Positions 6,191-22,028 of a stretch of 49,873 nt of DNA are shown one piece after another (positions within the stretch are counted from its first letter, which is position 1; every line of letters begins with the position of its first letter). The DNA comes from Deltaproteobacteria bacterium (GTDB taxonomy: Bacteria > Myxococcota_A > UBA796 > UBA9615). The translations under genes were made by a program, and so were the position numbers. The notes under the pieces were generated by a model. That model was given only the letters and a program-made list of their open reading frames with translations. It made no database searches and was not told the DNA's origin. The stretch spans positions 1-49,873 of the forward strand of contig JAGSHC010000015.1 in NCBI GenBank assembly GCA_023954745.1. Reading direction: 5' to 3'.

Positions 6191-8620
6191 ATGAGCCGCT
6201 CGCCCGACACGCTGCACTCCCCCGCGTCGGCGCTGGTCCTTGCGCGCGCACACAGCGCCCAGGACCTGCGGGAAGCCATCTCCGTCAGCGCCAAGGGCGA
6301 CGGCCAACAGGTCGAGATCCAGCTCGGGCACATGTGCAACAACGTGTGCGGCTTCTGCGTCTCGGGGCAGTTGACCCAGCAGCGCGTGGCGAAGCGTATC
6401 GCCCTCGAACCCATCATCGGTGTGCTCGAGGAGGCACGGGCCCGCGGCGTGTCCCGCGTGACCTTCCTCGGGGGAGAGCCCACCATTCAGCCGTCGTTCC
6501 TTCCCGCCCTCACCAAGGCAGTCGAGCTCGGCTTCCCCGACATCGTCATCTTCACGAACCTCGTGCGAGGGCGAGAGCCGACCTTCCTGGAGAAGGTCGT
6601 GGCCCTCGGACGCTTCACGTGGCGCGTCTCCATTCAAGGGGGCAACCAAGAGGCCCACGACCTCGTCGTGGGACGGACCGGCGCCTTCGCGAAGATCGAG
6701 CAAGGGCTGAGCTGGCTGGGAGAGCGCGGCCACGACCTGACCGCCAACGCCTGCATCAACGAAGACAGCTACCGCTCGGCGCCCGACTACGTGGGGCTGG
6801 TGCAGAGGAGCGGCATCCGCCAGTTGCACCTCGACATGGTGCGGCCCGGCAGCACGGGGGTGCGCGACGAGGCGCACATGAAGCACCTCCTGGCGAAGTA
6901 CTCCGACATGGCGGGGCCGTTGGGCCAGATGTTGGATGCCTTCGACGCCTGGAATCCAGACTTCGAGGTGAACATCGGCAACCTGCCGTTCTGCGTGCTG
7001 CCCCACCACGCCCACCGCATCGCCCATGGAGGCGAGGAGACGCTGACGGTCACCACCGACGACCGAGGCGAGCTCGGCCGCATCTGGAACAAGTACGACT
7101 ACCAAGGCGCCGACAAGGTGCACGCCGAGGCCTGCGGCAGCTGCGCATTCCGACCTCACTGTCGCGGGGTCCCCGCGGGGTACGCAGCGCTGTATGGGAC
7201 CGGCGAGCTGCGAGCCATCTCCGAGGGCGAGATCGAGGGCCTCGACCCCCGGGTGCAGCGCTGGATGGAGACGGGCTGGCGGCCAGGTCGGGGGCCCTCG
7301 GAGCCATCGTTCGAGAGCGAGCCTGCGGTCCCCGCGCCGGCCCCCCGAGACCTCGCCCGGGTCGTACGCCTCGCCAAGCGCATCCAACGCGGGGGGCCCT
7401 ACGGTGGATGGCGGGTCGCGCGCGTTCGGTCGACGTCCCCTTCGTCGGTAGCAGTGCAGTTGGCCCGGAATGGGGACGCCCTCGGGGTGAGCATCGAGGC
7501 TCGGCCTCAGGAGACACCGCCGGTGAAGGTGAGCTTCCAGCTCCCGGCCGGGGTCCCCGAGCAAGAGCTGCGCGGCCCGGTAGAAGCGATCAGCCTTGCT
7601 CTTCGGCGCAAGAAGGGGCCCAGGCCACCTACGCGGGTGAATCACCCGTCGAAGGAGGGAGAGGCCGGCCGCCGGTTGGAGCTCTTCGTCGCCAGCGGGT
7701 GCAACCTGCACTGCGCCTTCTGCTGCGAGTCGGATCGCATCCAGAAGAAGGCGTTCATGCCGTGGCCCGAGCTGGAACGGAAGCTCCTGGAGGCCGCAGC
7801 GGCCGGGGTGGACGTCATCCAGTTCATGGGGGGCGAGGCCACGCTCCACCCTCAGTTCCCCGACGCCTTGAAGCGAGCCAAGGAGCTCGGGATGGGCACG
7901 TACGTCATCACGAACCTCATGCGCTGGCAGCGGCGCGAGTTCGCCGAGGCGGTGGGCCCCTGGCTCGACGAGGTGATGATCTCCATGCACGCCGGAGACG
8001 CCGAGACAGGTCACGAGGTGACCGGGGTGCGCAATTGGTGGCGGGGTTTCCAGGTCGCCGCCCAGAACGCGCGAGAGACGCTGCGGGGCCGCGTGCGCGC
8101 CTCCACCGTGTTGACCCGCCACAACGTCGACCACCTCGAGCAGATCGCCGAAGAGCTGCTTCGGTTCGAGCCTCACGCGTGGGTGATGGGCTGCGCCGTC
8201 CCGGTGGAGGGCACTCGAGTCCCCGCGGCAGACCTGAACCTGACTCTGACCGACCTCAGGGGGATGCGGGATCGGTTCGTGGCCCTGTCCGCCCGCTGCG
8301 CAGCCCGTGGCTGCAAGCTCGTCTTCTTCTCCATTCCCCACTGCGTCCTCGGACCGGAGCTGTGGGACGACTCCCACGATCTGTGGCTCGGCGACCAGGA
8401 CCTGAGCGACAACGCCCCGTCGGCCCCCGAGAGCGTCACCTTCTGGCCGAAGGCGGACGACCTGTCGATCCCGCGGCCCATCACCCTCGCCCGTCGCCGC
8501 AGCGCGGTCTGCGACGGCTGCCAACGAGCCGAGCTCTGTGGTGGCCACTTTGCGGCCTATCTGGACCTGCATGGGGACGGCGAGCTCAAAGCGATCACCG
8601 ATGCCGACTCTGCCGGCTGA
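6191..8620 (+). CDS. Tandem radical SAM/SPASM protein (two complete barrels)
   Basis: The 809-residue protein contains two radical SAM units. Barrel 1 has the cluster motif Cys49-x3-Cys53-x2-Cys56 (CNNVCGFC), a GGEPT loop and a SPASM-like Cys315/318/324 set (CGSCAFRPHC). After a linker rich in Pro and Arg (about 365-490), barrel 2 has Cys504-x3-Cys508-x2-Cys511 (CNLHCAFC), a GGEATLHP loop and Cys774/777/783 (CDGCQRAELC). Both halves therefore keep everything needed for SAM cleavage and auxiliary clusters. SPASM radical SAM enzymes usually modify peptides. No precursor is seen next to it on this strand. The hxs locus starts within 2 kb on the other strand. Its 3' end overlaps the next gene by 20 bases, implying coupled expression. 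Substrate unknown. Confidence 0.85.
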   Translation: MSRSPDTLHSPASALVLARAHSAQDLREAISVSAKGDGQQVEIQLGHMCNNVCGFCVSGQLTQQRVAKRIALEPIIGVLEEARARGVSRVTFLGGEPTIQPSFLPALTKAVELGFPDIVIFTNLVRGREPTFLEKVVALGRFTWRVSIQGGNQEAHDLVVGRTGAFAKIEQGLSWLGERGHDLTANACINEDSYRSAPDYVGLVQRSGIRQLHLDMVRPGSTGVRDEAHMKHLLAKYSDMAGPLGQMLDAFDAWNPDFEVNIGNLPFCVLPHHAHRIAHGGEETLTVTTDDRGELGRIWNKYDYQGADKVHAEACGSCAFRPHCRGVPAGYAALYGTGELRAISEGEIEGLDPRVQRWMETGWRPGRGPSEPSFESEPAVPAPAPRDLARVVRLAKRIQRGGPYGGWRVARVRSTSPSSVAVQLARNGDALGVSIEARPQETPPVKVSFQLPAGVPEQELRGPVEAISLALRRKKGPRPPTRVNHPSKEGEAGRRLELFVASGCNLHCAFCCESDRIQKKAFMPWPELERKLLEAAAAGVDVIQFMGGEATLHPQFPDALKRAKELGMGTYVITNLMRWQRREFAEAVGPWLDEVMISMHAGDAETGHEVTGVRNWWRGFQVAAQNARETLRGRVRASTVLTRHNVDHLEQIAEELLRFEPHAWVMGCAVPVEGTRVPAADLNLTLTDLRGMRDRFVALSARCAARGCKLVFFSIPHCVLGPELWDDSHDLWLGDQDLSDNAPSAPESVTFWPKADDLSIPRPITLARRRSAVCDGCQRAELCGGHFAAYLDLHGDGELKAITDADSAG

Positions 8621-9266
8621 CGGAACGCCCCTGCGGCATCTCGCGGTGATCCCCGACGGCAACCGTCGATGGGCCCGAGCGCGCGGGCTGGGGCCCGAGG
8701 ACGGCCACCGCGCCGGCATCGCCAACGTGGGGGAGACCGCGAGGGCTGCGTTCGCTTCTGGCATCGAGACGTTCAGCTTCTGGTGGGGCTCTCCCGCCAA
8801 TCTGACGAAGAGAGACGCGGCCGAGGTGAGAGGCATCGTCGGGGTCCTGGAGACCTGGCTCGCTGAGGTGGCGCCGGCGCTCTGCGCAGAGGCGGACGCA
8901 CGAGTCGAGGTCATTGGACGCTGGCGGGAGCTGTGCCCGTCGCTGGAGCCCGCGATTGAGGCCTTGCCCACGCATGGGACGCGACATCTGGTCCTGTTCA
9001 TGGCCTACGACGGGCGGGAGGAGATCCGGGCGGCGGCTGAGTCGGACATGAGCTTCGAGGACGCCCTGTGGACGGCGCATCTGCCGCCGGTGGACCTGCT
9101 CATCAGGACTGGGGGCGACGCGCACTTCTCCGCGGGGTTCCTGCTCTGGAAGCTGGCTCAGGCGCAGCTCGCCTTCCCCGACGAACTCTGGCCCGCCTAT
9201 GGCCGCGCGTGTCTCGAGCGAGACCTCGATACGTTCGCCCGCACCCAGCGTCGCTTCGGTCGATAG
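8601..9266 (+). CDS. cis-Prenyltransferase (UppS/Z-isoprenyl diphosphate synthase family)
   Basis: The 221-residue protein has the family's conserved regions: IPDGNRRWARARG near the N terminus (Asp19 equals the catalytic Asp), SFWWGSPANLTKR in place of the usual FSTENW-R, and LIRTGGDAHFSAGFLLWK followed by FPDELWP. Active-site and diphosphate-binding residues are kept, so it should elongate isoprenyl diphosphates in the Z configuration. It is slightly shorter than housekeeping UppS (about 240-250), and region III is unusual. With a radical SAM protein on one side and a putative prenyl-transfer protein on the other, I infer a specialised donor synthase rather than the cell-wall enzyme. Start is ATG 8601, inside the end of the preceding gene. 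An upstream in-frame start also exists but would overlap more. Confidence 0.85.
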   Translation: MPTLPADGTPLRHLAVIPDGNRRWARARGLGPEDGHRAGIANVGETARAAFASGIETFSFWWGSPANLTKRDAAEVRGIVGVLETWLAEVAPALCAEADARVEVIGRWRELCPSLEPAIEALPTHGTRHLVLFMAYDGREEIRAAAESDMSFEDALWTAHLPPVDLLIRTGGDAHFSAGFLLWKLAQAQLAFPDELWPAYGRACLERDLDTFARTQRRFGR

Positions 9267-9270
9267 CTCC

Positions 9271-10257: not shown

Positions 10258-10303
10258 GGCGGACGGGCAGAAGCGGCGAACCAGTGCGCCACCTGGAGTC
10301 GTT

Positions 10304-10897
10304 TCAGCCCCGGGGAGCCGCGAACAGCAGGTCTGAGTGGTCTCCGGCTCTCCAGGCCACGAGCCAGCGATGGGGCAGCTGACCCGCCGGTCCCAGGCTC
10401 ACCTCCCCGACTCCCTCGACCATCCACTGGTCCCAGCCCGAGGCGCCGCCCAGGCGGAGCAAGGCAGCTGTCCGCTCTGCCTCCACACCGGCCACCTCCA
10501 GCTTCACCGGACCGACGTACAGGAGAGTGATGGTCTGGGAGGCTTCCCCTTCGGGAGTGATGGCGGCTCCCCGGGCGAGGGTCGCGGGGAGCTCGATGCT
10601 CCTCGCGGGAGCATCCACCGAGGCGGACACGCGCTCCACGAACCGGTTGGGGTGGAGCTCGAACGTGGTTCGGTCGAGCTCGCGGGGTGCGTCGTCTTCC
10701 ACGATGGACCGCACGCGCAGACGGGACAGGACGCCATCAGGCCCCCTCCGCGTCCGACTCCGCACGACGAGCTTGTCTCCCCCGCGGTCGAGCCACACCG
10801 CAAAGTCGGCACGCTCTCCGCGCCACAGGAAGTCGTCGAGGCGCGCCTCGTCTCGAGACGGGCCCAGAGGGGTAATGCGGAGTGGAGAGTCAAACAC
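10304..10897 (-). CDS. Uncharacterised protein, last gene of the hxs-like operon
   Basis: The 197-residue protein has no signal peptide or membrane segment. It begins VFDSPLRITPLG and looks beta-rich (FAVWLDRGGDKLVVRS, FELHPNRFVERVSASV, ITLLYVGPVKLEVAG), with few cysteines and no motif I can name. The start GTG 10897 lies 5 bases inside the end of the membrane-protein gene upstream, so the two are probably translated together. The longer in-frame extension to 11071 lies wholly within the upstream gene and was rejected. It ends 46 bases from the convergent prenyltransferase-like gene. Function unknown. Its place at the end of a RiPP operon fits an accessory or product-binding role, but nothing in the sequence shows this. 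Confidence 0.6.
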   Translation of the reverse strand: MFDSPLRITPLGPSRDEARLDDFLWRGERADFAVWLDRGGDKLVVRSRTRRGPDGVLSRLRVRSIVEDDAPRELDRTTFELHPNRFVERVSASVDAPARSIELPATLARGAAITPEGEASQTITLLYVGPVKLEVAGVEAERTAALLRLGGASGWDQWMVEGVGEVSLGPAGQLPHRWLVAWRAGDHSDLLFAAPRG

Positions 10898-11561
10898 CGT
10901 CGTCCTCCGCCCGCCAGGCCAGGGCGACGAGCACCACCGCGGCCAGCTCGGCTCCCTCGTCGGCCTGGTCTCCGCCCGCCAGGAGGGCCGTCCCCCCCGC
11001 AAGCACCAGGAGGACGACGACGGCGGGTAAGAAGGATGCATGAAGGCGAGGGAGACGGATCCGACCCGCAAAGCCAGTCAAGGCGGCGGGCCATCGCGCG
11101 TGCAGCGAGAGGACAACGCACACAAAGAGCGGCACGAGACGCCAGGCAGCCTCCAGGCCGGGGAGGTTGTGGGTGTTGAGGTTCCCCGATGTCGATTGGG
11201 CGCTGACGAGCCAGTCAGGGGTGACCACCGCGGTGATCCATTGGCCATAGTCGAGCTCTTCGAGCAGGACAGCGACGGAACCCAGGGCCATCCAGGGGGC
11301 ACCCTGAGAGAAGGCGCGCACCGCCACCCCGGCGAGCACTCCCGCGGTCAGCACCTCCACGAGGCCCTCTTTGCCCACGATGAACCCTTCCAGGGCCGCA
11401 GGGAGCGGGACAAAGAGAAGAGGAACTGCGGCCAGGCAGGCGGCGCCTAGCAACGCGCGACGGTCCCGCCCCTCGGTGCGGGGCCAGAGGCGCACCACCA
11501 ACATGGCGACGGCAGCCGCCGCGGCGAGATGCTCGACGTGGGTCCACTCCAGGGCCTTCAT
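10890..11561 (-). CDS. Polytopic membrane protein of the hxs-like operon
   Basis: The 223-residue protein has about six or seven hydrophobic segments (for example residues 9-24, 36-55, 65-85, 90-105, 145-162, 178-196, 203-217). A conserved-looking signature sits in a loop, EELDYGQWITAVVTPDWL, followed by NLNTHNLPG. It resembles uncharacterised bacterial membrane proteins carrying E-E-x-x-W/Y-GQ plus N-x-x-N-L/T-HN motifs. The role of these is unknown, so neither transport nor lipid chemistry can be assigned. ATGA overlap with the stop of the upstream tandem radical SAM gene shows tight coupling. It is the only clear integral membrane protein in the locus, so it is a candidate for export, anchoring or membrane-linked maturation. 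Confidence 0.75.
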   Translation of the reverse strand: MKALEWTHVEHLAAAAAVAMLVVRLWPRTEGRDRRALLGAACLAAVPLLFVPLPAALEGFIVGKEGLVEVLTAGVLAGVAVRAFSQGAPWMALGSVAVLLEELDYGQWITAVVTPDWLVSAQSTSGNLNTHNLPGLEAAWRLVPLFVCVVLSLHARWPAALTGFAGRIRLPRLHASFLPAVVVLLVLAGGTALLAGGDQADEGAELAAVVLVALAWRAEDDGV

Positions 11562-13594
11562 CCGGCGTCCGCGACGAGGGGATTGAGCGCGGTGGTGGGG
11601 CGGCGCGCGGCGTACTCGGCGTACACGCCTGTGCAGAGCCTGCGCATCGTGCAGGAGGCGCAGGCGTCGACGTGGGTCCGCTTTCGGTCCGGTCGCCAGT
11701 TGTAGAAGTCCTCGAAGACCGCCTTGCCCGGGCGCCGCGCCCACTCCGATGTCACCCGCGGGTCCCAGTGCAGGTCGTTGGAGAGCATGCGGTGCTCTCC
11801 CAACAAGCACATGGGCACGCCGAAGAAGCGAACGACCATGTCGCCGGCCCGGGCGGGGACGTGCGGCAAGACGCGGGCGAGGTCCTCCAACGGGACCGCG
11901 AGTTCGTCGTAGCGGTCGAGCGCGGCGCCCTCCGGTGTGGTGTTGGAGACCACGAGGAGCTGCGCTCCGAGGGATGCAGCGAGCGCCGCCGTGTCGGGGA
12001 GGAGGTCGATGTTCGCTCGGGTGACGACGGTGTTGACGGCGGCCATGAAGCCCGGCCTGCCCTGGACCGCGAGACGAAGGGCCGAGGTCACTTGCTCGAA
12101 GCTGCCTTCGCGACCGGCCAGGGCGTCGTGCACTTCGGCGGTGGGCCCGTGCAGCGAGAAGAGCGCTTCGTCGAGATGCGGCAGGGCGCGGTCGGCGAAC
12201 TCCTCCCGGGCGAGCATGGTCCCGATGGTGCCGACGGAGGTGCGCATTCCCAGGCCCTTGGCGAGGGCCAGGATCTCCACGAACTGCGGGTGCACGGTGG
12301 GCTCACCGCCCGTGAGATGCACTGCATGCACCCCACGTTGGGAGTGCTTGCGCAGCACCTTGCCCACCCTGGAGGCCGTCACCGGGAAGCTTCGAAAGGC
12401 GCGCATCCGGTGGTCTTCGGAGCAGAACACGCACCGCTCAGGGCAGTGGTAGGTCACGTGCAGCTCCAAGCGGCGCATCACCTGCCCCTCGGGCCCGATC
12501 CATGGAGTGGCGCCCTGGGGCGCCGGGTCCAACACGGGCAGCGCCTCGAATGCAGCCCGCTGGTCGTGCTGCTTGCGCCGGCGCTTCCACCGGGCCCAGT
12601 CGCCGTACAAGGACTCCACGAGCCCGCTCAGAGCGGCATCTGCGGCCCGGGTGCTCTGGACGATCTTGTCGGGCAGCTCCTGTTGAAGCAGATCCCAGGT
12701 GCGCGCTGCTCCGGCGTCCAGGTCCTCCACACGCGGGGGCTCGTCCAGCGAGCCCAGTCGGGTCTGGGAGCCCAGCTCCTCGAGCTTGCCCGAGAGGACC
12801 ACGTTGCTGGTGTGGATGCTGGCGTCGGAGTCGACCACCAGCCCCGTGTTGAAGAACGGTGTGGGGGCCCACACGAAGAGATTGCGCAGGTAGAGGTACT
12901 CCCCCGCGTCCCACATCGCTCGCACGCGGTCGCCGATGGCCGTGAAGCCAGCCCGCAGCGAGGTGAGCTGGTCCTCGCGCCACGGAATGAAGTAGCCGGG
13001 CAACAGATTGAACCGGCGGAGTCCCAGCCCCAGGAGATGCTCGAAGTTCTCGGCCGCGCGATGGGCCGTCGCCGGTGGGATCGTCTGGGTGATGACGACC
13101 CGGGGCGTCGCCACGATGCGCGGCATCATCGTCAGCAGGTGGGCGTAGGCGTCCGCGACCCCGGGCAGCGCCTTGCGAAAGCGCCGGTGGTCTTCGGGCG
13201 CTCCGTCCATCGAGATGGTGAGGATCGCCTTCGGCTCCGCCGCGACCCAGTCGAGCCAAGCATCCGTGAGCCCGAGGCCGTTCGTCGACACGTAGACACG
13301 GCGAATCTCGGGGCGGGCCGCCGCGGCCGCCGTGGCCGCACGCACGACATCGGGGACGAGCAGGGGCTCACCTCCGAAGATCTTGATGTCCCCCCCGCCG
13401 TAGCTCCCCGCGAAGAGATCCACCGCGCGCACCGCGTCAGCCACGGAGAGCTCGGGCATGCCGTCTTTTGCCGTGGGGCAATAGGCGCAGCGGAGGTCAC
13501 AGCGGCGTGTGACGGTGAGGATGAGGGTGCGGGCGGGGCCGCGTTCGTCGATGGGGCCGGGGTCCTGCGCGCGCGGTGCCGTCGGCCCTACCAC
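11558..13594 (-). CDS. Tandem radical SAM protein directly after the Hxs precursor
   Basis: The 678-residue protein has two radical SAM barrels. Barrel 1 carries Cys32-x3-Cys36-x2-Cys39 (CDLRCAYC) and FGGEPLL, and appears to lack its own SPASM cysteines. Barrel 2 carries Cys384-x3-Cys388-x2-Cys391 (CPERCVFC) and TGGEPTVHP. It ends in a SPASM-like CASCTMRRLC. GTG 13594 is the likely start and overlaps the precursor's TAG (GTGGTAG), so translation is linked to the precursor. It ends in an ATGA overlap with the membrane-protein gene. Position suggests it acts on the HGS peptide alongside HxsB, but the target residues cannot be inferred. Confidence 0.85.
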   Translation of the reverse strand: MVGPTAPRAQDPGPIDERGPARTLILTVTRRCDLRCAYCPTAKDGMPELSVADAVRAVDLFAGSYGGGDIKIFGGEPLLVPDVVRAATAAAAARPEIRRVYVSTNGLGLTDAWLDWVAAEPKAILTISMDGAPEDHRRFRKALPGVADAYAHLLTMMPRIVATPRVVITQTIPPATAHRAAENFEHLLGLGLRRFNLLPGYFIPWREDQLTSLRAGFTAIGDRVRAMWDAGEYLYLRNLFVWAPTPFFNTGLVVDSDASIHTSNVVLSGKLEELGSQTRLGSLDEPPRVEDLDAGAARTWDLLQQELPDKIVQSTRAADAALSGLVESLYGDWARWKRRRKQHDQRAAFEALPVLDPAPQGATPWIGPEGQVMRRLELHVTYHCPERCVFCSEDHRMRAFRSFPVTASRVGKVLRKHSQRGVHAVHLTGGEPTVHPQFVEILALAKGLGMRTSVGTIGTMLAREEFADRALPHLDEALFSLHGPTAEVHDALAGREGSFEQVTSALRLAVQGRPGFMAAVNTVVTRANIDLLPDTAALAASLGAQLLVVSNTTPEGAALDRYDELAVPLEDLARVLPHVPARAGDMVVRFFGVPMCLLGEHRMLSNDLHWDPRVTSEWARRPGKAVFEDFYNWRPDRKRTHVDACASCTMRRLCTGVYAEYAARRPTTALNPLVADAG

Positions 13595-13863
13595 TGCCCG
13601 TGGGAGCCGTGCGACCCGTGGGAGCCGTGCGAACCATGGGAACCGTGCGAGCCGTGCGAACCATGGGAGCCGTGCGAACCATGGGAGCCGTGCGAGCAGT
13701 GCTGGGCGAGGACCCAGCCCGAGTTCTGATCGTCGCGCAGCACCGAGCGTGCCTGCTCCTGGAGTTCCTCAGAAGCTGCCCGCTCCACCGACTGCGCCTC
13801 ATCCACCTGCAGGAAGTGCGCGGCGTTGCGGCGAGGTTTCGGCAGGTCGTTGTCGAAGGCCAT
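13588..13863 (-). CDS. hxsA: HxsA-type RiPP precursor with His-Gly-Ser repeats
   Basis: The 91-residue peptide has a charged, helical leader (MAFDNDLPKPRRNAAH..., about 57 residues, no signal peptide). The C-terminal core follows VLAQ and consists of HCS, ten HGS units and a final HGQW. The codons vary synonymously from unit to unit (CAC/CAT, GGC/GGT/GGG, TCC/TCG), showing that the peptide repeat, not the DNA, is kept. His-Xaa-Ser repeats define HxsA, the substrate of the HxsB/HxsC radical SAM pair. A good ribosome site (GGAG, 7 bases from ATG 13863) sits in the end of hxsB. The single core Cys and terminal Trp are notable possible anchor points. The leader segment RRNAAHFLQVDEAQSVERA is a plausible recognition region. 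Confidence 0.9.
   Translation of the reverse strand: MAFDNDLPKPRRNAAHFLQVDEAQSVERAASEELQEQARSVLRDDQNSGWVLAQHCSHGSHGSHGSHGSHGSHGSHGSHGSHGSHGSHGQW
13591..13701 (-). repeat. Tandem 9-bp repeat encoding the HGS core
   Basis: Twelve consecutive tripeptide units encode HCS, ten HGS, and HGQ followed by W. Units alternate between a few synonymous codon combinations, giving imperfect 9/18-bp periodicity. It is a coding repeat, not a CRISPR or structural DNA repeat. Confidence 0.9.
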
Positions 13864-13867
13864 CGAG

Positions 13868-15451
13868 TTACTCCAGCACCGGAAGGCGGCTGTGACCAGA
13901 CGTCGGTCCACCACTCTCCACCGAAGAAGGATCCCTTACGGGTGGCGCAGCGTCCAGCCCTTCCTCGGGGTCTCGAGGTCGACTGATCGTCCAGCGGCGG
14001 AAGATTCGCTCCACAGAGCCGTCCTCGTCGCCGTCGAGCTTGCTCAGCAAGAACCGCGCAATTCCCATGTGTTCAGCGCACTTCGGCGTGCGGGCGCGCT
14101 GGGCGAAGAGGTCCTTCTGCAGCATGTAGTTGTGGAGCGGACGCACCCCACAGAATGGTGCGTTCCAGCAGTCGGCACACATTGGGAGCGAGTCCAGGAT
14201 CGAGGCGACGGCGATCGCCTTCACCGTGGGGTGATTCACCGCCTCGTCGAAGGTGGTGTTGTCGACGTGCCCGAGATCGAACAGATCGTCGCCCATGGCC
14301 GCGATCATCCGGGCCTCGTCCGAGGCGTGGATCGAGCCGTCGTACATGTAGGCGAGCTGGCCAGTTCCCGAGCCCACGGGAGAGCGGATGTCCACGAAGT
14401 TGGGGTCATCGGGAGTCAGCATCTTCATGAGGAACACCGAGGCGGTGCCCTCGGAGATCTCGACGCCCTGCCGGTTGAGCTCGAGGATGTACTCCAGGCA
14501 GTTCGTATAGAACTCCAGGTACTCCTCGGGGCTGTAGCCGATGCGCTTCCATGTGGACATGGCGAACCCGAACGGATTCAGCGGGCGCAGATGGATGTTC
14601 TTGATGCCGAGGCTGACGTAGAGGTCAATGACCTCCTTCCAGTGGTCGATGGTCTTGCGCGTCGTGGTCATCAGCGCGTCGACGTGCCACAGACGCGGGT
14701 CCCGACCGAGTTCGATGTACCGGTTGTTGAACCACTCGATCCAGTGGATGACGCTGTCGTAGGCGTTGCTGCCCTTCTGCCAGGTGCGGTTGTAGTTGTG
14801 GACCTCCGCCGGGCCGTCGAGGCTGGTGCAGACCATGACGTTGTTGCGAACGAGCCACTCGGCCATCTCCTCGGTCATCGTCGTCATGTTGGTGACGAGG
14901 GAGTGCTCGAGGCGCTTGTTCTCGTACCGGTTCTTCTCCCGGCTGTACTCCACGATGAACTTGAGGGACTCGAACGCCACCGTGGGTTCGCCGCCCTGAA
15001 ACTCGATGTTCAAGTACGGCGAGGGGGTCTGCATGATGTGGTCGACGACCTTCTTCGCCGTCTCCAGCGACATGTCGGTGTCGACGCGGTCCATCTCGGT
15101 GCGCGAGGCATGGCAGTAGCGGCAGTTCTGATTGCACCGCAGCGTCGTGATGATGATCCCCAGATGGGGCCCTTGCCCGAGGAAGCGCTTCTTGCGCCTC
15201 AGCCGAGAAGCGAGGCCCGCCACGTCGAGGTCGTTGCGGATGAATCCCTTCGCCTGCAGGACCGCATGCCGAGGATGCTCCTCGTCGATGCGCCCTCCGA
15301 GCAGGTCCTCGAACTCCGGCTCGTCGAGGAGCTCCCAGTCCCCGACGTCATTGGTGATGACCACCCGCTGTCCGATGCGCCCGAACCTGAACCAGGCGAG
15401 CTCGTCGGAGGCGACCTGCGGGCGACGCAGAGTGATGCTTCGCTGACTCAT
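13868..15451 (-). CDS. hxsB: His-Xaa-Ser system radical SAM maturase HxsB
   Basis: The 527-residue radical SAM/SPASM enzyme has an N-terminal RRE-like or substrate-binding region (residues 1-95, with RFGRIGQRVVITNDVGD). The cluster motif is Cys106-x3-Cys110-x2-Cys113 (CNQNCRYC). EFQGGEPT, VTNMTTMTEEM and CTSLDGP follow. A C-terminal SPASM segment contains MCADCWNAPFCG, and CAEHMG follows. This arrangement, with 'FQGGEPT', 'LDGP' and 'NPFG', matches the HxsB branch. Immediate neighbours are HxsD-like genes upstream (ATGA overlap) and the HGS precursor 4 bases downstream, the expected setting. It installs radical-derived modifications in HxsA. The Pro/Ser-rich C-terminal tail of about 45 residues is not typical of the catalytic core. 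Confidence 0.88.
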   Translation of the reverse strand: MSQRSITLRRPQVASDELAWFRFGRIGQRVVITNDVGDWELLDEPEFEDLLGGRIDEEHPRHAVLQAKGFIRNDLDVAGLASRLRRKKRFLGQGPHLGIIITTLRCNQNCRYCHASRTEMDRVDTDMSLETAKKVVDHIMQTPSPYLNIEFQGGEPTVAFESLKFIVEYSREKNRYENKRLEHSLVTNMTTMTEEMAEWLVRNNVMVCTSLDGPAEVHNYNRTWQKGSNAYDSVIHWIEWFNNRYIELGRDPRLWHVDALMTTTRKTIDHWKEVIDLYVSLGIKNIHLRPLNPFGFAMSTWKRIGYSPEEYLEFYTNCLEYILELNRQGVEISEGTASVFLMKMLTPDDPNFVDIRSPVGSGTGQLAYMYDGSIHASDEARMIAAMGDDLFDLGHVDNTTFDEAVNHPTVKAIAVASILDSLPMCADCWNAPFCGVRPLHNYMLQKDLFAQRARTPKCAEHMGIARFLLSKLDGDEDGSVERIFRRWTISRPRDPEEGLDAAPPVRDPSSVESGGPTSGHSRLPVLE

Positions 15452-15678
15452 GCAGCACCTCCCGAACGGCTCGCAGCCGTCTCGGCGAGCACATAGTTGG
15501 CGAGCTCGTCGACGAGGACGTCCTCGTGGCGGGGGTCGATCTCCGTCACGGCGAGTACAAAGGCGTCGGCGTCCTCCGAGAGGGCGATCCGGGCAAACTT
15601 GCCGAACGCCTCGACGCCCGCGTGCACGGCGTCCGCTGCATAGAGGGACCGGTCGAACCGTACGACGGCGTCAGCCAC
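15448..15678 (-). CDS. Small HxsD-like protein (second copy)
   Basis: The 76-residue protein runs VADAVVRFDRSLYAADAVHA...IALSEDADAFVLAVTEIDP...VDELANYVLAET. It keeps the HxsD layout: an opening 'FD-SLY--DAV' segment, a central strand pair, then 'EL-N-(V/L)L'. It is much shorter than the neighbouring HxsD and lacks the C-terminal Arg-rich helix. Start GTG 15678 overlaps the upstream hxsD by 8 bases, and its stop overlaps hxsB (ATGA). Small HxsD-like proteins in other loci are thought to be partners that bring precursor and radical SAM enzyme together. That role is inferred here. Longer in-frame starts run through hxsD and were rejected. Confidence 0.65.
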   Translation of the reverse strand: MADAVVRFDRSLYAADAVHAGVEAFGKFARIALSEDADAFVLAVTEIDPRHEDVLVDELANYVLAETAASRSGGAA

Positions 15679-16120
15679 CGACGGATCCTTGGCCCGAGCG
15701 TTCCCAGGGGACCTCGATCTCGAGCGGATCGTCGTCGAGATCCTCGGCATCGAGTTCAGCGAGCAGCGCGTCGATGCTCGCGCGGCCGTCGTTCCCGAAG
15801 AAGGCCCGGGCGAGGGTGTACTCCCGAATCTGAGAGGTCGCCTCACTCACCTGCCGCCGCACCATCTGGTTGAGCAGCTCGTTGGCGAACTCCCCCGCGA
15901 GAGCAACCAACTGGTCTTCAGTGGCAGCTCCACGACTTCGTAGGCGCACCCGGACGTGACCATCCGACGGCCGCGTCAGAAAGACGTAGGCGCGGTCGAC
16001 GAAGAGGTAGGCCGCCCCATAGACGGCCTCCTTCGCGTAGAGCTCTTCGTGGAGGTCGAAGGAGACAGCCCGGGCACCGAGGTCGTAGACCAGTTCGAGG
16101 TCGTCCGCGCCGTCGCTCAC
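15671..16120 (-). CDS. hxsD: HxsD, His-Xaa-Ser system accessory protein
   Basis: The 149-residue protein has the HxsD core: FDLHEELYAKEAVYGAAYLFVDRAYVFLT (residues 21-49), a beta-strand VRVRLR, then EFANELLNQMVRRQVSEAT and IREYTLARAFF. The 'NELL-Q--R' helix is typical of the family. A disordered acidic C-terminal tail of about 40 residues (ELDAEDLDDDPLE) is extra. HxsD has no known catalytic motif and is presumed to assist precursor binding. Start GTG 16120 forms a GTGA overlap with the upstream Tat-protein gene, placing it in the same translational chain as hxsB and hxsA. Confidence 0.75.
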   Translation of the reverse strand: MSDGADDLELVYDLGARAVSFDLHEELYAKEAVYGAAYLFVDRAYVFLTRPSDGHVRVRLRSRGAATEDQLVALAGEFANELLNQMVRRQVSEATSQIREYTLARAFFGNDGRASIDALLAELDAEDLDDDPLEIEVPWERSGQGSVGG

Positions 16121-16689
16121 AGAAGCGCTCCCGGTTCCGCAGAGAGGTACTTCTCGATGCGCTGCTCGTGGGTAAGAAGATCCGAGGGGACCACCCCCGT
16201 CGCCCCAGCAAGCTCGGCCAGGGCACGCAGGGCGAGTCCCAGGTCCTCCGCGGTGGCCAGGCTGCCCTGACCGTCGTTCATCACGAGGAAGTCCAGCTCG
16301 TCGGTGCTGGCAGGCCCCACGGCGCAGCCGCCATTGGCGCAGACATGCACGCGGGCCATGACACCGTCTCGGGAGAGCACGACGAGCATCGCGCCCTTCT
16401 CGGGAGCCCGGACCTCGGTCAATCGCCATCCATCGCGCACCTCATCACCGATCCCCACCGGCGAGAAGATCTCGGCAGGACCGGCCTCAGCCTCCGCTCC
16501 GAGCGCAATCCCAGCCTCGACTTCAGCCACCCGCTCAGGCGACTTCTGGGTGATCTCTCCGGCCGTCCGACGTGACGAGGACTCCGCCTCGCCGGCACGT
16601 GCGGCGCCCATGCCGAGCATCGGCGCGGTCAGGACGGCAGCGCTCGCAGCGAGCACCTTCCGACGATCGTGGTCCACGTTGTCCTTCAT
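16117..16689 (-). CDS. Tat-exported protein of the hxs-like operon
   Basis: The 190-residue protein has a twin-arginine signal at its start (DRRKVLAASAAVLTAPMLG, then ARA as the likely cleavage site). The mature part has a Pro/Glu-rich linker and a compact domain with VHVCANGGCAVGPAS and NDGQGSLATAEDLGLALRALAEL, so a Cys-x4-Cys pair could bind metal or form a disulfide. I do not recognise the domain. Tat export is used for folded, often cofactor-bearing proteins, so the gene links the cytoplasmic maturation genes to something done outside the membrane. ATG 16689 is chosen over GTG 16692 because GGAGGT lies 5 bases upstream. It overlaps hxsD by 4 bases. Confidence 0.75.
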   Translation of the reverse strand: MKDNVDHDRRKVLAASAAVLTAPMLGMGAARAGEAESSSRRTAGEITQKSPERVAEVEAGIALGAEAEAGPAEIFSPVGIGDEVRDGWRLTEVRAPEKGAMLVVLSRDGVMARVHVCANGGCAVGPASTDELDFLVMNDGQGSLATAEDLGLALRALAELAGATGVVPSDLLTHEQRIEKYLSAEPGALL

Positions 16690-16709
16690 CACTCACCTCC
16701 GCGTGCGAC

Positions 16710-16723
16710 GAGCCCTGGGGCTC
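16710..16723 (-). promoter_or_regulatory. Small inverted repeat ahead of the Tat-protein gene
   Basis: GAGCC-CCAG-GGCTC lies in the 55-base gap between the third and fourth genes of the minus-strand run, just upstream of the GGAGGT ribosome site. It is the only real gap in the operon and might tune expression of the hxsD-hxsB-hxsA part. It could also be chance in GC-rich DNA. Confidence 0.3.
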
Positions 16724-16744
16724 CTCAAGCCCGCCGAGGATAGC

Positions 16745-17863
16745 CTAACCGGCTACCTCCGCCCCGGAAGACCGTGTCTGGGGCTGTCCTTCGCGGTCCA
16801 TCGACCGCACCGCACTGGCCGGAACTCCGAGGGCTCGCAGCCGCGCCCGTCCCCGAGCCTCCACTGAAGGCTGCTCCGTGGTCGACCGACGGCCCGCCCG
16901 CGCGCGGATGCGCTGGATCAGCTCCGGCGCAGGCTCGCCTCGAAGCACCGCGCGGAGGACGGGCATCACGTCGCCAAAGACGGGCGACAGCTCACGCTCG
17001 TCAAAGGACCTCGCCATCGAGAACATCCCGGCACAGATGGAGTCGTAGGAGCAGCTGTCACATGCCACGCCCTTCCCGTGCAGGAACTCCTTCTGGTGCA
17101 CGAAGCCCTTGTCGTCGAGAAAGCGAATGCAGCGCTCCTCCTCCTTGACGATCTTTCGCGTCTCCGTGGACGCCCAGGCGTACCGGGGCATGAAGCACAG
17201 CGGGACCCGCTCGGCGCGAAAGGTCCGCCCGTTGGCGTGCAGGTAGTCCATGGCACGCTCGAGCGACACCTGGAACTCGTGGTGGCGCGCGATGCAGTCG
17301 GGGTTGTCCTCGGCGCGGTTCCCGTCGGGGTCCATGTTGTTCCACACGAAGTGGCGTACATGAGGGAAGCGCTCGCAGATCCATCGCACGGTCTCGTCGA
17401 GGTGGTGCGCGTTGTAGCTGCAGATCACGGTGTTGATGTCGCACGTGATGCCAAGCACCGGGACCAACTCCAGACAGCCGACCAGGGTCTCCCAGGCGCC
17501 CCGGTACTTCGTGATGAAGTCGTGCACCTCCTGCCGTGAGCTGTGGAGCGACACGTGGATGTGGCTCAAGCCCGCATCCACCAGCCGCCGGAAGAACGCC
17601 TCCTCGGCGAGCAGCTGCCCGTTGGTGATCATTCGGCTGTGCAACCCCAGCGACTTCGCGTGTTCCAGCGCGGGGATCAGGAGCGGAGACAGGCTCGGCT
17701 CGCCGCCGGTCAGGATCACCCCGTCGTAGCCGAGCTCTGCGAGACGATCGAGCTCGCCGCGCATGGCGTCCTCCCCCAACTCCACGCCCGTAGGCGGGTT
17801 CGAGCAGAACCGACATCCCTGGTAGCAGTCGCGGGTGAGCTGGAGATATCCGAGGTTCGCCAT
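16745..17863 (-). CDS. Radical SAM/SPASM protein, possible HxsC counterpart
   Basis: The 372-residue radical SAM protein has Cys13-x3-Cys17-x2-Cys20 almost at the N terminus (CYQGCRFCSNPP), LTGGEPSLSP, MITNG, and a HVSLHSSRQEVHDF segment. Auxiliary-cluster cysteines follow, including ERCIRF and CDSCSYDSICAG. The length and the CxxxCxxCSxPP motif resemble HxsC, the second maturase of the Hxs system, but I cannot confirm the subfamily. It begins in a TGATG overlap with the upstream radical SAM gene. The C-terminal roughly 60 residues (RRSTTEQPSVEARGR...) are low-complexity and variable. Its likely substrate is the HGS precursor or the Tat protein encoded just downstream. Confidence 0.8.
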   Translation of the reverse strand: MANLGYLQLTRDCYQGCRFCSNPPTGVELGEDAMRGELDRLAELGYDGVILTGGEPSLSPLLIPALEHAKSLGLHSRMITNGQLLAEEAFFRRLVDAGLSHIHVSLHSSRQEVHDFITKYRGAWETLVGCLELVPVLGITCDINTVICSYNAHHLDETVRWICERFPHVRHFVWNNMDPDGNRAEDNPDCIARHHEFQVSLERAMDYLHANGRTFRAERVPLCFMPRYAWASTETRKIVKEEERCIRFLDDKGFVHQKEFLHGKGVACDSCSYDSICAGMFSMARSFDERELSPVFGDVMPVLRAVLRGEPAPELIQRIRARAGRRSTTEQPSVEARGRARLRALGVPASAVRSMDREGQPQTRSSGAEVAG

Positions 17864-19707
17864 CAGCCGAGGATCTCCAGCCGACGACGACGACGCGCTT
17901 CGGCCTTGTCCCGCGCGAGGACCGCCAACGGGTCCTGGGGCGAGCTCCCTGGCCCGGCGAACCCCGGCAGGGATGGGGCCGAGAGCTCGGGGGGCCGCCC
18001 GGTGGCCAACCGGGGCGGAGGCTCCGGGTAGAGCGCCTCGAGCTGGGACGCGGCGGACGCGGCCCACTCTCCCTCGACCGGAGCGCACAGCGACAAACCC
18101 TGGTCCCGCACCATGTTGATGTGGGGTCCCTCGCAGCGACTCTCGACCGAGCAGTCGACACAGCGCAACGAGCGCGCCCGGTAGCGCGAGTCGACGTGGT
18201 GCACCGCGAGCGGGCGAATGGCGAGCCGCCCGGTGGCGGAGTCGAAGAGACTGACGGGCAAGCGCACCGGATCGGGCACCAGGCGCGCCCCCGGGGCGAG
18301 ACACGCCGGCAGCCCCGACACGGGGACGGGGAGCGCGAGCGAGCGGAAGAAGGCCGCCGGGTCCCGTACGTCCTCCGCAGCTGCGTCACTGAGCCGCTCC
18401 CACGTGGGCTGACGGATGCTGATGGCATCGAGATTCCCCTCCACCGCCGCGCGATGCTCCAACAGCCAGGGCGCCGTGCGGACGTTGAGGAGGATGCTGA
18501 GTCGGTGGGTCAGAACCTGTCCCGGGTTGCCAAGCAGCAGGTCCAGCTGCCCGGCGTCACCCACCTCCAGGGTGCTCTCTGGCGGGACCAGGGCGAGGCT
18601 CTCGGCGTCGAGCTCGTCGACCGCCAATAGGAGCCGGGTCGAGGGCAGGTTCAGCGGAGCCAACTCGCGCACGTGCCCGAGCCCCAGCGCGAGACCTCCC
18701 GCGCCGAACGCCAGGCTGTCCCCATCGCGCACGAGCTCCCCAGCCTCCACCCGGGGCGACGCGCCGAGGTCGAGCCACTGCACCGTGCGATCCCGCAACG
18801 AGGCGATGACGCGGTCCGCCGACGTGCAGAAGGGTTCGATGAAGCAGTGCACACAGCGCTCCGGCTGCCGACAGTCCAGCGGCGCGCCACCGTCGAGATA
18901 TCGCCGCACCTGGTAGCGCCGACCGTTCACCTCATCGAGCATCTTGTGAGGGTCCTGGATCAGGTCCTCGAGCCCCTCCAGATACGAGACTGGGAACCGA
19001 TTCGTCCAGACGACGAAGCCTGGATGTCGGTTGAGACGGAAGACCTTGTGCAGGGTCTCGATGTGCTCGCGGGGGTCGTAGAAGAGCTCGTCGCGATGCT
19101 CGAAAGCCGCCGCCTGCGGGATCACGTGGAGAAGGTCGAACTCGGTGACGCCGAGGCCGATGCACAGCTCCAGCACCCGATCGATCACGCCCACGTTCTG
19201 CTTGTTGATGACGACGTCGGCGTTGACGATGACTTCCCGGCGTCGGACGGCGCGGACCATCCCCTTGATCAGGCGCTTGAACGAGCCCGGATGCTGGGTG
19301 AGGTGGTCGTGCAAGGCCTCCGTGTGGCCGTGCAAGGAGAAGGTGATCTCACCGAGCCCGGCGACCACGGCGTCCTTGTAGAAGGCGGCGTCGGCGAACA
19401 TCCAACCGTTGGTCACCGTCTGGACCCGGTCGTAGCCCATTCCCTTCGCCGCAGCGACAAGCTCGTGGAAGCGGGGGTGCAGCGACGCCTCTCCTCCGCT
19501 GATGATCACCTTGTCCGCGTCCAGCTCCGTGCGGCCTCGAGAGAGCTCGGCCACGACGTCGTCGAACGGCAAGAACAGGTTCCGCGGCGTGTCCGAGTCG
19601 AGGCAGAACAGGCAGCGGGAGTTGCACGCCGTGACCGCCCGCACCCAGTGCTTCTTGCGGTTGGCGATGCGCTCGCGCTCGAGCATGTCCTCGCGCACGT
19701 CCGTCAT
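17863..19707 (-). CDS. Radical SAM/SPASM protein with a degenerate second half
   Basis: The 614-residue protein has an N-terminal half that is an intact radical SAM enzyme: Cys28-x3-Cys32-x2-Cys35 (CNSRCLFC), ISGGEASLHP, TVTNGWM, ITFSLHGHTEALHD and a SPASM-like CVHCFIEPFCTS. Residues from about 340 on have no CxxxCxxC but keep a barrel-like run of strands, then CLAPGARLVPDPVRLPVSLF and CVDCSVESRCEG. This looks like a second SPASM domain attached to a dead radical SAM barrel. I infer a tandem ancestor in which the second half lost the SAM cluster. The gene starts in an ATGA overlap with the cluster-less radical SAM gene upstream, so the two proteins may work as a pair. Confidence 0.8.
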   Translation of the reverse strand: MTDVREDMLERERIANRKKHWVRAVTACNSRCLFCLDSDTPRNLFLPFDDVVAELSRGRTELDADKVIISGGEASLHPRFHELVAAAKGMGYDRVQTVTNGWMFADAAFYKDAVVAGLGEITFSLHGHTEALHDHLTQHPGSFKRLIKGMVRAVRRREVIVNADVVINKQNVGVIDRVLELCIGLGVTEFDLLHVIPQAAAFEHRDELFYDPREHIETLHKVFRLNRHPGFVVWTNRFPVSYLEGLEDLIQDPHKMLDEVNGRRYQVRRYLDGGAPLDCRQPERCVHCFIEPFCTSADRVIASLRDRTVQWLDLGASPRVEAGELVRDGDSLAFGAGGLALGLGHVRELAPLNLPSTRLLLAVDELDAESLALVPPESTLEVGDAGQLDLLLGNPGQVLTHRLSILLNVRTAPWLLEHRAAVEGNLDAISIRQPTWERLSDAAAEDVRDPAAFFRSLALPVPVSGLPACLAPGARLVPDPVRLPVSLFDSATGRLAIRPLAVHHVDSRYRARSLRCVDCSVESRCEGPHINMVRDQGLSLCAPVEGEWAASAASQLEALYPEPPPRLATGRPPELSAPSLPGFAGPGSSPQDPLAVLARDKAEARRRRRLEILG

Positions 19708-20765
19708 GCCGAGGTCCCCAGCTGATGCGCCTTGCGCACGCGATGCCGCTCGTCGTCGCTCCACCGGCCCATCGGCGTGGGGTCGGCATGCACCTCCACG
19801 CGGGGCGCCGCGCGCACTGCCTCCCGCAGCAGATCTGGAGCGTCCGGGTGGGCCAGAGCGTCGTCCCCCAAGATGCGAAGGACGGCGGGGCGACGCTCCA
19901 GAGCGAGCACGAGGCGCCGACGTACGGCACGCCGGTCCTCCTCCGCCGTCCACTCCAGGTCCGCCGTGTCGGCGTCTCCCGTGGGCGACTGGCGAAGCTC
20001 CAGAGAGCCGAAGGTCTGCACGTAGGAGTGGGGCAGCCCGGAGCACTGCTCGGTGCACTCCGCACAGCGGGCGCCCGTGCCGGACTCCTCCTCGAGGACA
20101 TGAGGCTGAAGGTTCACGGGAACCGCGCAGAGCGGGAGGCCCCGAAGTTGCACCTGGAGCCCTGCCCGAAGAGCCTCGGCGCCAGCTTCGGCGAGCGGGC
20201 GGGCGAGCAGACGGATCCGCGCGCCGAGGGCCACCCGACGGTCAGCGGCGACGTGCTCCAGCCGGACGGCCCGAAACCCTACGGACCGAACCCCGAGAGC
20301 GACCAACGTCGAGACGGTGGCTGCCAGACCAAGGATCCCGGGCCGGACCAGCGGGATCTCCACGTGCACCGCCAAACCGCCCGAGACCGCGGCTCGTACG
20401 CCTCGCAGGATCGACTTCGCCTCAGCGACACCAGCCACCCAGTCATGGCAGGCCGGCGACGCCGAGTAGAGGCACACGGACAGACCGAGTCCCGAGGTGG
20501 CACGCAAGCGCTCGAGGACGCGAGGAGAGCGGAGCGCGATCCCCGTCGTGCTCACCACCACGGGACGGTCGACCATCCCGAGGAGCGCGAGGAAGTCTGG
20601 CCGCGCGAGCACGTCTCCTCCGTCCAACAGAAGGATGCCCGGCGCGCTCCGGGCGCTGCGCACCACGCCCAGCGGCACGGGTCCGACGGCAGCCTCATCA
20701 CGCCAGCCCGCCGTGCCGGGGACTCCCGCGGCGACACGACTCAGACGTTGGGATGGCGCAACCAT
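19704..20765 (-). CDS. Radical SAM-fold protein lacking the 4Fe-4S/SAM cysteine motif
   Basis: The 353-residue protein has the radical SAM barrel pattern (GILLLDGGDVLARPDFLALL in place of the GGEP strand, then VVVSTTGIAL, LSVCLYSASPACHDWVAG and VHVEIPLVRPG). The N-terminal region where CxxxCxxC should stand contains no cysteine. A SPASM-like set remains (LPLCAVP, then CAECTEQCSG). It therefore probably cannot cleave SAM but could still bind peptide or auxiliary clusters. It is the first gene of the eleven-gene minus-strand run. A TACAAT hexamer lies 6 bases before ATG 20765. The longer in-frame extension to 21554 runs antisense through the divergent hydroxylase gene and was rejected. Confidence 0.75.
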   Translation of the reverse strand: MVAPSQRLSRVAAGVPGTAGWRDEAAVGPVPLGVVRSARSAPGILLLDGGDVLARPDFLALLGMVDRPVVVSTTGIALRSPRVLERLRATSGLGLSVCLYSASPACHDWVAGVAEAKSILRGVRAAVSGGLAVHVEIPLVRPGILGLAATVSTLVALGVRSVGFRAVRLEHVAADRRVALGARIRLLARPLAEAGAEALRAGLQVQLRGLPLCAVPVNLQPHVLEEESGTGARCAECTEQCSGLPHSYVQTFGSLELRQSPTGDADTADLEWTAEEDRRAVRRRLVLALERRPAVLRILGDDALAHPDAPDLLREAVRAAPRVEVHADPTPMGRWSDDERHRVRKAHQLGTSA

Positions 20766-20771
20766 GGCGGG

Positions 20772-20777
20772 ATTGTA
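20772..20777 (-). promoter_or_regulatory. -10 element of the hxs-like operon (leaderless geometry)
   Basis: On the minus strand TACAAT (5 of 6 consensus) is followed by CCCGCC and then the ATG of the first gene. The expected transcription start falls on the start codon, and there is no room for a ribosome site. The -35 region is weak. Confidence 0.5.
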
Positions 20778-20822
20778 GGGCCCACCTGAGCCATCGGCAG
20801 GCCAGAGCGACGAGGGCCTCGG

Positions 20823-20828
20823 CATACT
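20823..20828 (+). promoter_or_regulatory. -10 element of the HExxH gene (leaderless geometry)
   Basis: CATACT is followed by six bases (CGCGTC) and then GTG 20835. The spacing is identical to that of the divergent operon promoter in the same 69-base gap, so both directions may be controlled together. Confidence 0.4.
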
Positions 20829-20834
20829 CGCGTC

Positions 20835-22028
20835 GTGGCCCCCCTCCCCCATGGACTTCTGCTGCTCCCACGACCCGGTGAGAACACCACCGGCAGCCTG
20901 CGTCGAAAGGTGCGGCTGCTCGCCATTCGCGACCTCCTGGGACTCGGCACGCCGTGGTCGGCAGCCCTCGAAGCCACCCTGCGGACCGCGTCGGCCCAGA
21001 CCCTCGCCTCCGTGGGCGCGCCGGACGTCCTGCCCTCGCTGCTGGCCGCGCGGAGCGGCCTCGTCTCCCTGCCCGAGGCGCTGTCTCGTGCAGTCCCGAA
21101 CCTGCTGTGCTCGTTGCACGCTGCCGGCGTGCGTCCTCCGGAGCCGATCCTCTACGAGGGCCCAGTCGCCCACCTCGCAGGCCTCGGCGCGCGCAGCGTG
21201 CACCTCGAGAGACCCGGCCGCGCCGTGCTCCTCGACGCGGCCGGTCTGTCCGTCGAGCTCGCCGACGGCGCCCATGTCGACGTCGAGCAACTCCCCTCGC
21301 TGCCGTCTTCTCACCCACTCCCCGGGACGGGCGTCGCCCTCTGCCTGGACGACACGAACCCGTTGTCCCACCTCGAGGACCACCCCGACAAGGCAGGCAA
21401 CGCAGTGGATCTGGGCGGGCATTCCCTCGACGAGTGGACCCGCGAGCTGGGCAAGGCCTTCGACGTCATCAAGTCTGGGCTGCCCCACTGGTTCGACGAG
21501 CTGCCCCAGAGCCTGTGCCGACTCCTCCCGGTGGGCTACGAGCCCGAGCGTCACCTCTCAGCCAGCTACGGCGACGCTCCGGGCATTGCGTACCTGACCC
21601 TGCACCCCAGCGGGCTGACCCTCGCGGAGGCCGTCGTACACGAGACGCAGCACGGCAAGCTGAACCTGCTCCTGTGGCTTGACGAAGTCCTCGAGAACGG
21701 CCGCACCGACTGGGCCACCTCTCCGGTACGGCCGGACCTGCGCCCCCTGATGGGCGTGCTGCTCGCGGTGCATGCGTTCATTCCGGTGGCCGCACTCCAC
21801 GCCCGCCTCCTCGCCGCGGGACACCCCCTCGCCGCCGGCCCCAGCTTCGAGCGACGCCGCACCGAGGTGCTCTCAGGCAACGAAGGCGGCCTCGCAGTGC
21901 TTCGAACCAAGGCCCGCCCAACGCGGGTCGGCGCGCGCCTCCTGGAGGCCCTGGAGGCCTTGCACGCCGCAACCCTGACCGGGGTCCCGGCTCTCCCCGA
22001 GGCAACCCGCGCACTGCCGCCGGGATAG
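20835..22028 (+). CDS. HExxH-type putative RiPP beta-hydroxylase
   Basis: The 397-residue protein is largely helical, with no signal peptide. Its key feature is His269-Glu270-x2-His273 in AEAVVHETQHGKLNLLLWL, the signature of the HExxH family found in RiPP loci. This family is now described as alpha-ketoglutarate/iron-dependent peptide beta-hydroxylases rather than proteases. Upstream segments (CLDDTNPLSHLEDHPDKAGN) and a GLAVLRTKA stretch near the C terminus are also family-like. The gene is divergent from the hxs-like operon with a shared 69-base promoter region, so it is probably co-regulated. His or Ser side chains of the HGS core are plausible targets, by inference only. Start GTG 20835 is supported by the frame and promoter geometry. 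Confidence 0.75.
   Translation: MAPLPHGLLLLPRPGENTTGSLRRKVRLLAIRDLLGLGTPWSAALEATLRTASAQTLASVGAPDVLPSLLAARSGLVSLPEALSRAVPNLLCSLHAAGVRPPEPILYEGPVAHLAGLGARSVHLERPGRAVLLDAAGLSVELADGAHVDVEQLPSLPSSHPLPGTGVALCLDDTNPLSHLEDHPDKAGNAVDLGGHSLDEWTRELGKAFDVIKSGLPHWFDELPQSLCRLLPVGYEPERHLSASYGDAPGIAYLTLHPSGLTLAEAVVHETQHGKLNLLLWLDEVLENGRTDWATSPVRPDLRPLMGVLLAVHAFIPVAALHARLLAAGHPLAAGPSFERRRTEVLSGNEGGLAVLRTKARPTRVGARLLEALEALHAATLTGVPALPEATRALPPG

Follow-up and report, generated by a model that had tools for sequence, protein, structure and literature searches.

Introduction

The His-Xaa-Ser (Hxs) system, attributed to Haft and Basu in PMC9062424, consists of HxsA, HxsB, HxsC and HxsD (NCBIfam TIGR03976-TIGR03979). 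NCBIfam also holds models for the precursor type HxsA4 (NF038313) and for HxsC4 (NF038332); a search of the open literature yielded no paper on HxsA4 and none on Hxs chemistry. Published hydroxylases of the alpha-ketoglutarate (aKG)-HExxH type (ChlH, PflC, PosC, BpmH) act on His, Asp or consecutive Gln (PMC12636437). Here we analyze a 49,873-nucleotide stretch of a Deltaproteobacteria bacterium (assembly GCA_023954745.1, contig JAGSHC010000015.1; hereafter the window), in which positions 6191-22028 encode a 91-aa precursor, HxsB, two HxsD-type proteins, a protein with a twin-arginine translocation (Tat)-type signal, an aKG-HExxH protein and six proteins of the radical S-adenosylmethionine (SAM) fold. 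Genes are lettered as in Table 1, gene I being a fusion of two families, I1 and I2. The locus probably represents an expanded HxsA4-type pathway for a ribosomally synthesized and post-translationally modified peptide (RiPP), in which one multi-radical-SAM system would act on a His-Gly-Ser (HGS) peptide. The precursor type is already in NCBIfam, whereas the multi-enzyme system, its phylum-wide association and the link between I1 and a Gln-Trp terminus were not found described in the literature searched.

Comparison with known systems

Families were called by bit score against curated NCBIfam cut-offs, which the precursor (H), HxsB (G), HxsD (E), its HxsD-like companion (F) and the HExxH protein (P) each exceeded; the first four had already been recognized as an HGS-repeat precursor, HxsB and two HxsD-like proteins in a preliminary description of this DNA. 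Like the Hxs system, the window combines HxsB and HxsD with a His-Xaa-Ser repeat precursor and an HxsC-type protein (A). It differs in its precursor, whose HxsA4-type core is pure (HGS)n between an HCS cap and a QW or SW cap, and in having a second HxsD-like protein and an HxsC-type protein that lacks the radical cluster. Further additions are radical SAM families B, C, I1, I2 and I3, the Tat-type protein D and a predicted HExxH hydroxylase. Against the model for HxsA itself (TIGR03979), H scored only 22 bits (cut-off 121.65). Nor did anything in the window reach the HxsC cut-off (TIGR03977, 267.9 bits), the top scores being 99.8 bits for L and 97 bits for C. Because no protein attains that cut-off, the locus is, as judged by profile scores, a variant of Hxs and not a canonical HxsABCD system.

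Two further models refine the comparison. I3 of related loci aligns with HxsC4 over its full length at 133-165 bits (164.7 in locus L059; L, G and f numbers denote related loci, genomes and families), but no tested protein reaches the cut-off of 500, and the best in the window is L at 110.6 bits. B, C, D, I1 and I2 matched no specific model in the NCBIfam profile comparison. Like the published aKG-HExxH hydroxylases, P carries a TIGR04267 domain beside a radical SAM maturase; it differs from them as a stand-alone gene paired with an HGS-repeat precursor, and its activity is predicted.

Co-occurrence of C, HxsB and HxsA4

Association of the added enzymes with the Hxs components was examined in samples of 71 genomes of the class and 284 of the phylum. 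In the class, 37 of the 71 genomes had HxsB above its cut-off and 36 had C; 33 had both, 4 only HxsB and 3 only C (Fisher p 2e-12); these seven exceptions are mostly fragmented metagenome-assembled genomes (MAGs). Across the phylum, C and HxsB occurred together in 91 of 102 system-positive genomes (C only 6, HxsB only 5, neither 182). Corresponding counts were 84 for C with HxsA4 (C only 13, HxsA4 only 4, neither 183) and 86 for HxsB with HxsA4 (HxsB only 10, HxsA4 only 2, neither 186). In genome G164 the three genes lie far apart or on different contigs, so their link is not only one of neighbourhood.

Scanning genome contigs with C yielded 57 loci, mostly in Deltaproteobacteria and Myxococcota MAGs, with others in Elusimicrobia, Omnitrophota and Bradymonadales. 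Ten distant genomes from these last groups and others, reached through C alone, all encode HxsB above cut-off (493-558 bits) and all have an HxsA4 match, above cut-off in eight; the matches below cut-off, in G071 and G078, adjoin HxsB. The preliminary description would have been refuted by extra-gene homologues regularly living without an HxsA-like precursor; C shows the opposite pattern, and the proposal of one modified peptide withstands this test. Elusimicrobia and Omnitrophota arrays had also been considered as HxsA-free controls, their flanks being devoid of a precursor; they were dropped when whole-genome searches found HxsA4 and HxsB in all.

These distributions bear on whether this is an ordinary Hxs system whose extra radical SAM genes are bystanders of genome rearrangement. 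The host genome has 77 radical SAM matches, and the M-N pair described below is itself a bystander. Gene order is nonetheless conserved in many families, and co-occurrence is near complete in the phylum, including unlinked genes, and extends to other phyla. We consider bystander status for the extra genes very improbable, and the phylum counts together with the ten distant genomes led us to reject it.

The precursor repeat and its C-terminus

Behind its leader, H carries a core of HCS, ten HGS units and HGQW (positions 13591-13701). In 62 distinct arrays from related loci there were 943 HGS, 36 HAS and 7 HSS units and a handful of others, including one QGS. HGS units use 40 of 48 possible synonymous codings, and TCN and AGY serine codons are mixed in 38 of the 62 arrays. 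Such coding diversity shows that the HGS tripeptide is under strong selection. In an initial group of 38 precursors, every core starts with HCS and all 34 complete ones end in HGQW, the number of units ranging from 3 to 49. Within the repeat, Ala or Ser can replace the central Gly, whereas His and Ser themselves are almost never lost, a pattern suggesting that these two are the residues modified. Precursors of the distant genomes share this core and end in HGQW, HGSW or HGAW. HxsA4-type precursors of two Elusimicrobia loci (L171, L174) end instead in HCRGGWCNPRC, and the single-contig genome G224 holds a simpler HGSW-type system at about 415-423 kb of contig 1 (L186, L187).

Precursors fall into two subtypes, ending in HGQW or HGSW, and the subtype is tracked by I1. 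When the HGQW state was scored in genomes by a DNA pattern for HGSHGQW-stop, I1 and the pattern were each present in 35 genomes, together in 32 and each alone in 3, and both were absent from 64 (p 1e-19). Of the six exceptions, three are incomplete MAGs, two (G084, G089) have weak I1 scores, and in G019 the precursor is truncated at the end of its contig. System-positive genomes outside the class gave 6 with both, 2 with I1 only (weak scores), none with the terminus only and 62 with neither. Locus by locus, I1 adjoins HGQW precursors and never HGSW ones, and both states occur within each of families f15, f43 and f19. This correlation suggests that I1, together with I2, probably either acts on the Gln-Trp end or requires it. 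Part of the association could also stem from joint transfer of a linked block.

Radical SAM families

Six radical SAM-fold proteins had been proposed, and six were confirmed (L, I, G, C, B and A); they hold nine barrels, of which seven have the CX3CX2C motif that binds the radical [4Fe-4S] cluster. Almost all copies of C, I1, I2, I3 and HxsB retain this motif (32/32 for I1 and 39/39 for I2). C is 58-80% identical in ten aligned relatives. The preliminary description took it for a possible HxsC, an assignment we reject: C falls far short of the HxsC cut-off (97 versus 268 bits) and forms its own clade with B, as sister to the N-terminal domain of that protein. I1 and I2, fused in the window, are two separate genes in the relatives examined; I1 has no auxiliary motif and I2 is twitch-type. 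The nearest window counterpart of I3, an HxsC4-like family, is the N-terminal half of L by tree. That half is 43% identical to a protein in another Hxs locus (L194), and the C-terminal half is 47% identical to a protein adjoining another M-N pair (L136). Membership of L in the shared system is uncertain.

Two proteins of the set contain barrels devoid of the radical motif, as had been noted earlier. B combines a live barrel with a dead C-terminal one; it has one CX3CX2C and two auxiliary motifs, as in its relatives, and the C-terminal half keeps only auxiliary cysteines. A has neither CX3CX2C nor GGE, and both tree and alignment place it with HxsC: it groups with canonical HxsC and the dead half of B (Shimodaira-Hasegawa-like approximate likelihood ratio test [SH-aLRT] 88-92). 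CX3CX2C is intact in relatives of A in L042, L055 and L059 and lost in the window, L052, L061, L062 and L067, with the auxiliary LPxC...CxxC...C motif remaining in most. We infer that A is an HxsC-type protein, dead here and active in some lineages.

Alternatively, A and the dead half of B might be decaying genes without function. A is divergent (27-39% identity in matches), shorter than its counterpart in L061 (353 versus 573 aa) and stripped of both motifs. However, 31 cluster-less relatives of A, like the dead half of B, retain the auxiliary cysteines, as might be expected of a helper binding a peptide, a partner or an iron-sulfur cluster. Decay is in our view unlikely.

Helper proteins

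The Arg-Arg signal of D is invariant in a 20-row alignment and in 44 sequences, and D-H pairs were found in L051, L086, L089 and L093. The invariant signal and the pairing with precursors suggest that D is a Tat-exported partner of the precursor. Those same four loci hold two copies of precursor and/or D, an arrangement suggesting that D and precursor form a unit. Sequence profiles of D and E had no matches in the PDB, nor did the modelled fold of D (predicted local distance difference test [pLDDT] 77). The HxsD (E) model (pLDDT 82) has a beta-beta-alpha-beta-beta-alpha arrangement, and its nearest solved structures are dimerisation subunits of Rpb11/RpoL type (E 7e-4, template modelling score 0.37-0.55). 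This resemblance makes pairing of HxsD with the HxsD-like protein plausible, if weakly so. The HExxH motif is intact in P and kept in 32 of 33 relatives.

Locus layout and genus-limited genes

Genes A to K form a minus-strand run, from 20765 down to 10304, of mostly overlapping neighbours (1-8 bases). P is read divergently from A on the other strand, and the plus-strand genes L-M-N (6191-10257) converge on K. In relatives, P typically diverges from A-B-C, some families then have an Ig-like lipoprotein, and D-E-F-G-H-I1-I2-I3 come next. The content, order and overlaps first described, including the Tat-type protein, the membrane protein and the divergent HExxH gene, needed only small corrections.

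Table 1. Genes of the expanded Hxs locus and adjoining plus-strand genes, in window coordinates
Gene	Position	Strand	Assignment and evidence
A	19704..20765	minus	HxsC-type radical SAM protein (inferred) without CX3CX2C; auxiliary LPxC...CxxCx3-5C motif kept
B	17863..19707	minus	Live radical SAM/twitch domain and dead C-terminal barrel with auxiliary cysteines only; PF04055 51.6 bits
C	16745..17863	minus	Radical SAM/twitch protein; most conserved member
D	16117..16689	minus	Protein with Tat-type signal (RR motif)
E	15671..16120	minus	HxsD; TIGR03976 58.2 bits, cut-off 50
F	15448..15678	minus	HxsD-like; NF038315 65 bits, cut-off 41
G	13868..15451	minus	HxsB radical SAM/SPASM maturase; TIGR03978 497.5 bits, cut-off 370
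H	13588..13863	minus	HxsA4 precursor, 91 aa; NF038313 92 bits, cut-off 55; repeat family D1
I	11558..13594	minus	I1 and I2 radical SAM fusion; two PF04055 domains
J	10890..11561	minus	Membrane protein
K	10304..10897	minus	Protein without assigned function
L	6191..8620	plus	Tandem radical SAM; two PF04055 domains
M-N prenyl pair	8601-10257	plus	M, cis-prenyltransferase family, PF01255 134 bits; N, no recognised family
P	20835..22028	plus	Predicted aKG-HExxH-type peptide beta-hydroxylase; TIGR04267 96 bits, cut-off 40

Several genes are confined to the immediate lineage. Relatives of J (46%) and K (44%) in L061 were recognised only in the same genus, and neither protein matched a Pfam family. 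Five of the 71 class genomes contain N, and beyond the genus it does not lie beside Hxs genes; in both genomes of the genus, M-N is convergent to the Hxs operon. These distributions exclude M-N from the core genes, and the pair is a lineage-specific neighbour that is not part of the shared system. An initial proposal that all these genes serve one modified peptide is thereby narrowed: the extra radical SAM genes do belong with the HxsA-type precursor and HxsB, while the prenyl pair stands outside. M and N stay together as a two-gene unit (the window, L135, L136, L137), in most cases at a distance from Hxs genes, and N has conserved K-x-Y motifs. These motifs suggested a prenyltransferase, an identification that found no support in Pfam or the PDB, where N had no match. 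The family of M, the convergent placement in both genomes and the resemblance of the N-terminal half of L to a protein of another Hxs locus would suit a role for L-M-N in adding a prenyl group to the HGS peptide, for example on the terminal Trp. Given that N has no recognised family and is rare and remote from Hxs genes beyond the genus, such a role is highly doubtful.

Flanking genes include, upstream of L (3256-6171), a 971-aa lipoprotein-like protein with Ig-like, lamin-tail and MopE metal-binding motifs; weakly similar Ig-like proteins lie inside the Hxs cluster of L044, L048, L062 and others. Beyond the HExxH gene are a PilZ-domain protein (22107-22454), also in L061, and a RimO/MiaB-like radical SAM methylthiotransferase (22466-23860), an ordinary neighbour with 80% identity at the same place in L061.

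One pathway or two

Related arrays in other phyla bear on an alternative organization. Two Elusimicrobia arrays (L118, L123) resemble the window in carrying relatives of B, C, I and HxsC-type proteins; they differ in placing these beside NifH-family genes and, in L123, nitrogenase-component-like genes, which the window cluster lacks. L116 (Omnitrophota) and L125 have the same relatives beside B12-binding radical SAM genes. The same genomes also hold HxsB and HxsA4, and in L169 and L170 these are on the same contig as the array. The nitrogenase-like and B12-type genes keep alive a scheme of two pathways, in which HxsA4, HxsB and HxsD would make the peptide, and the A-B-C-I array a product of its own, a radical-derived cofactor or small molecule that the peptide uses or has loaded onto it. 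Such genes are at home in cofactor pathways, family scores mark many array members as MoaA- or PqqE-like, and C is separated from HxsB and HxsA4 in G164. Yet the presence of I1 follows the precise residues at the precursor's C-terminus, as befits a peptide-modifying enzyme, and C almost never occurs without HxsB. We regard two pathways as unlikely.

Several observations nevertheless weigh against a single expanded HxsA4-type pathway. Part of the array could serve another pathway, given its NifH-like, nitrogenase-component-like and B12-binding radical SAM neighbours elsewhere. Five genomes carry HxsB without C. Counts are uncorrected for relatedness and for incompleteness of MAGs. Because the co-occurrence tests treat genomes as independent, their p-values (down to 4e-60) overstate the association, although the distribution across families stands without them. 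Placement of A with HxsC draws on SH-aLRT values of 88-92 and divergent sequences, and the product itself is predicted from genes.

Discussion

By comparing profiles, motifs and gene distributions, we arrive at a candidate route for an HxsA4-type RiPP. A ribosomal precursor, with a conserved leader and a long (His-Gly-Ser)n core that opens with an HCS cap and closes with Gln-Trp, would be presented by HxsD and the HxsD-like protein, perhaps as a heterodimer. The probable targets of HxsB, the twitch-type proteins C, B and I3 and the HxsC-type protein A are the invariant His and Ser in every repeat, with A catalytically active in some lineages and a putative cluster-less helper in the window. 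I1 and I2 are predicted to tailor the terminal Gln-Trp, and P probably beta-hydroxylates repeat residues. D is probably the carrier that takes the folded product, or a complex containing it, through the inner membrane. As to use, the most likely guess, weakly supported, is a surface or secreted His-rich polymer that probably handles metal. More tentatively, a poly(His-Gly-Ser) RiPP may be modified at every repeat by a radical SAM team and an HExxH hydroxylase and separately tailored at its Gln-Trp end, with nitrogenase-like reductases recruited to the pathway in Elusimicrobia; this fuller picture is somewhat less likely than not.

If the single-pathway interpretation holds, about six to seven radical SAM families would act on one repeat peptide, placing the system among the most enzyme-rich RiPP pathways. 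The data yield directly testable assignments, with I1 and I2 directed at the terminal Gln-Trp and the shared enzymes at the repeat. HxsC-type proteins provide a natural series from active to cluster-less forms. The Elusimicrobia arrays connect orphan nitrogenase-like genes to a peptide pathway, and these paralogues would, if the connection is true, gain a substrate. The same enzyme set tracks the HGS peptide across a bacterial phylum and beyond.

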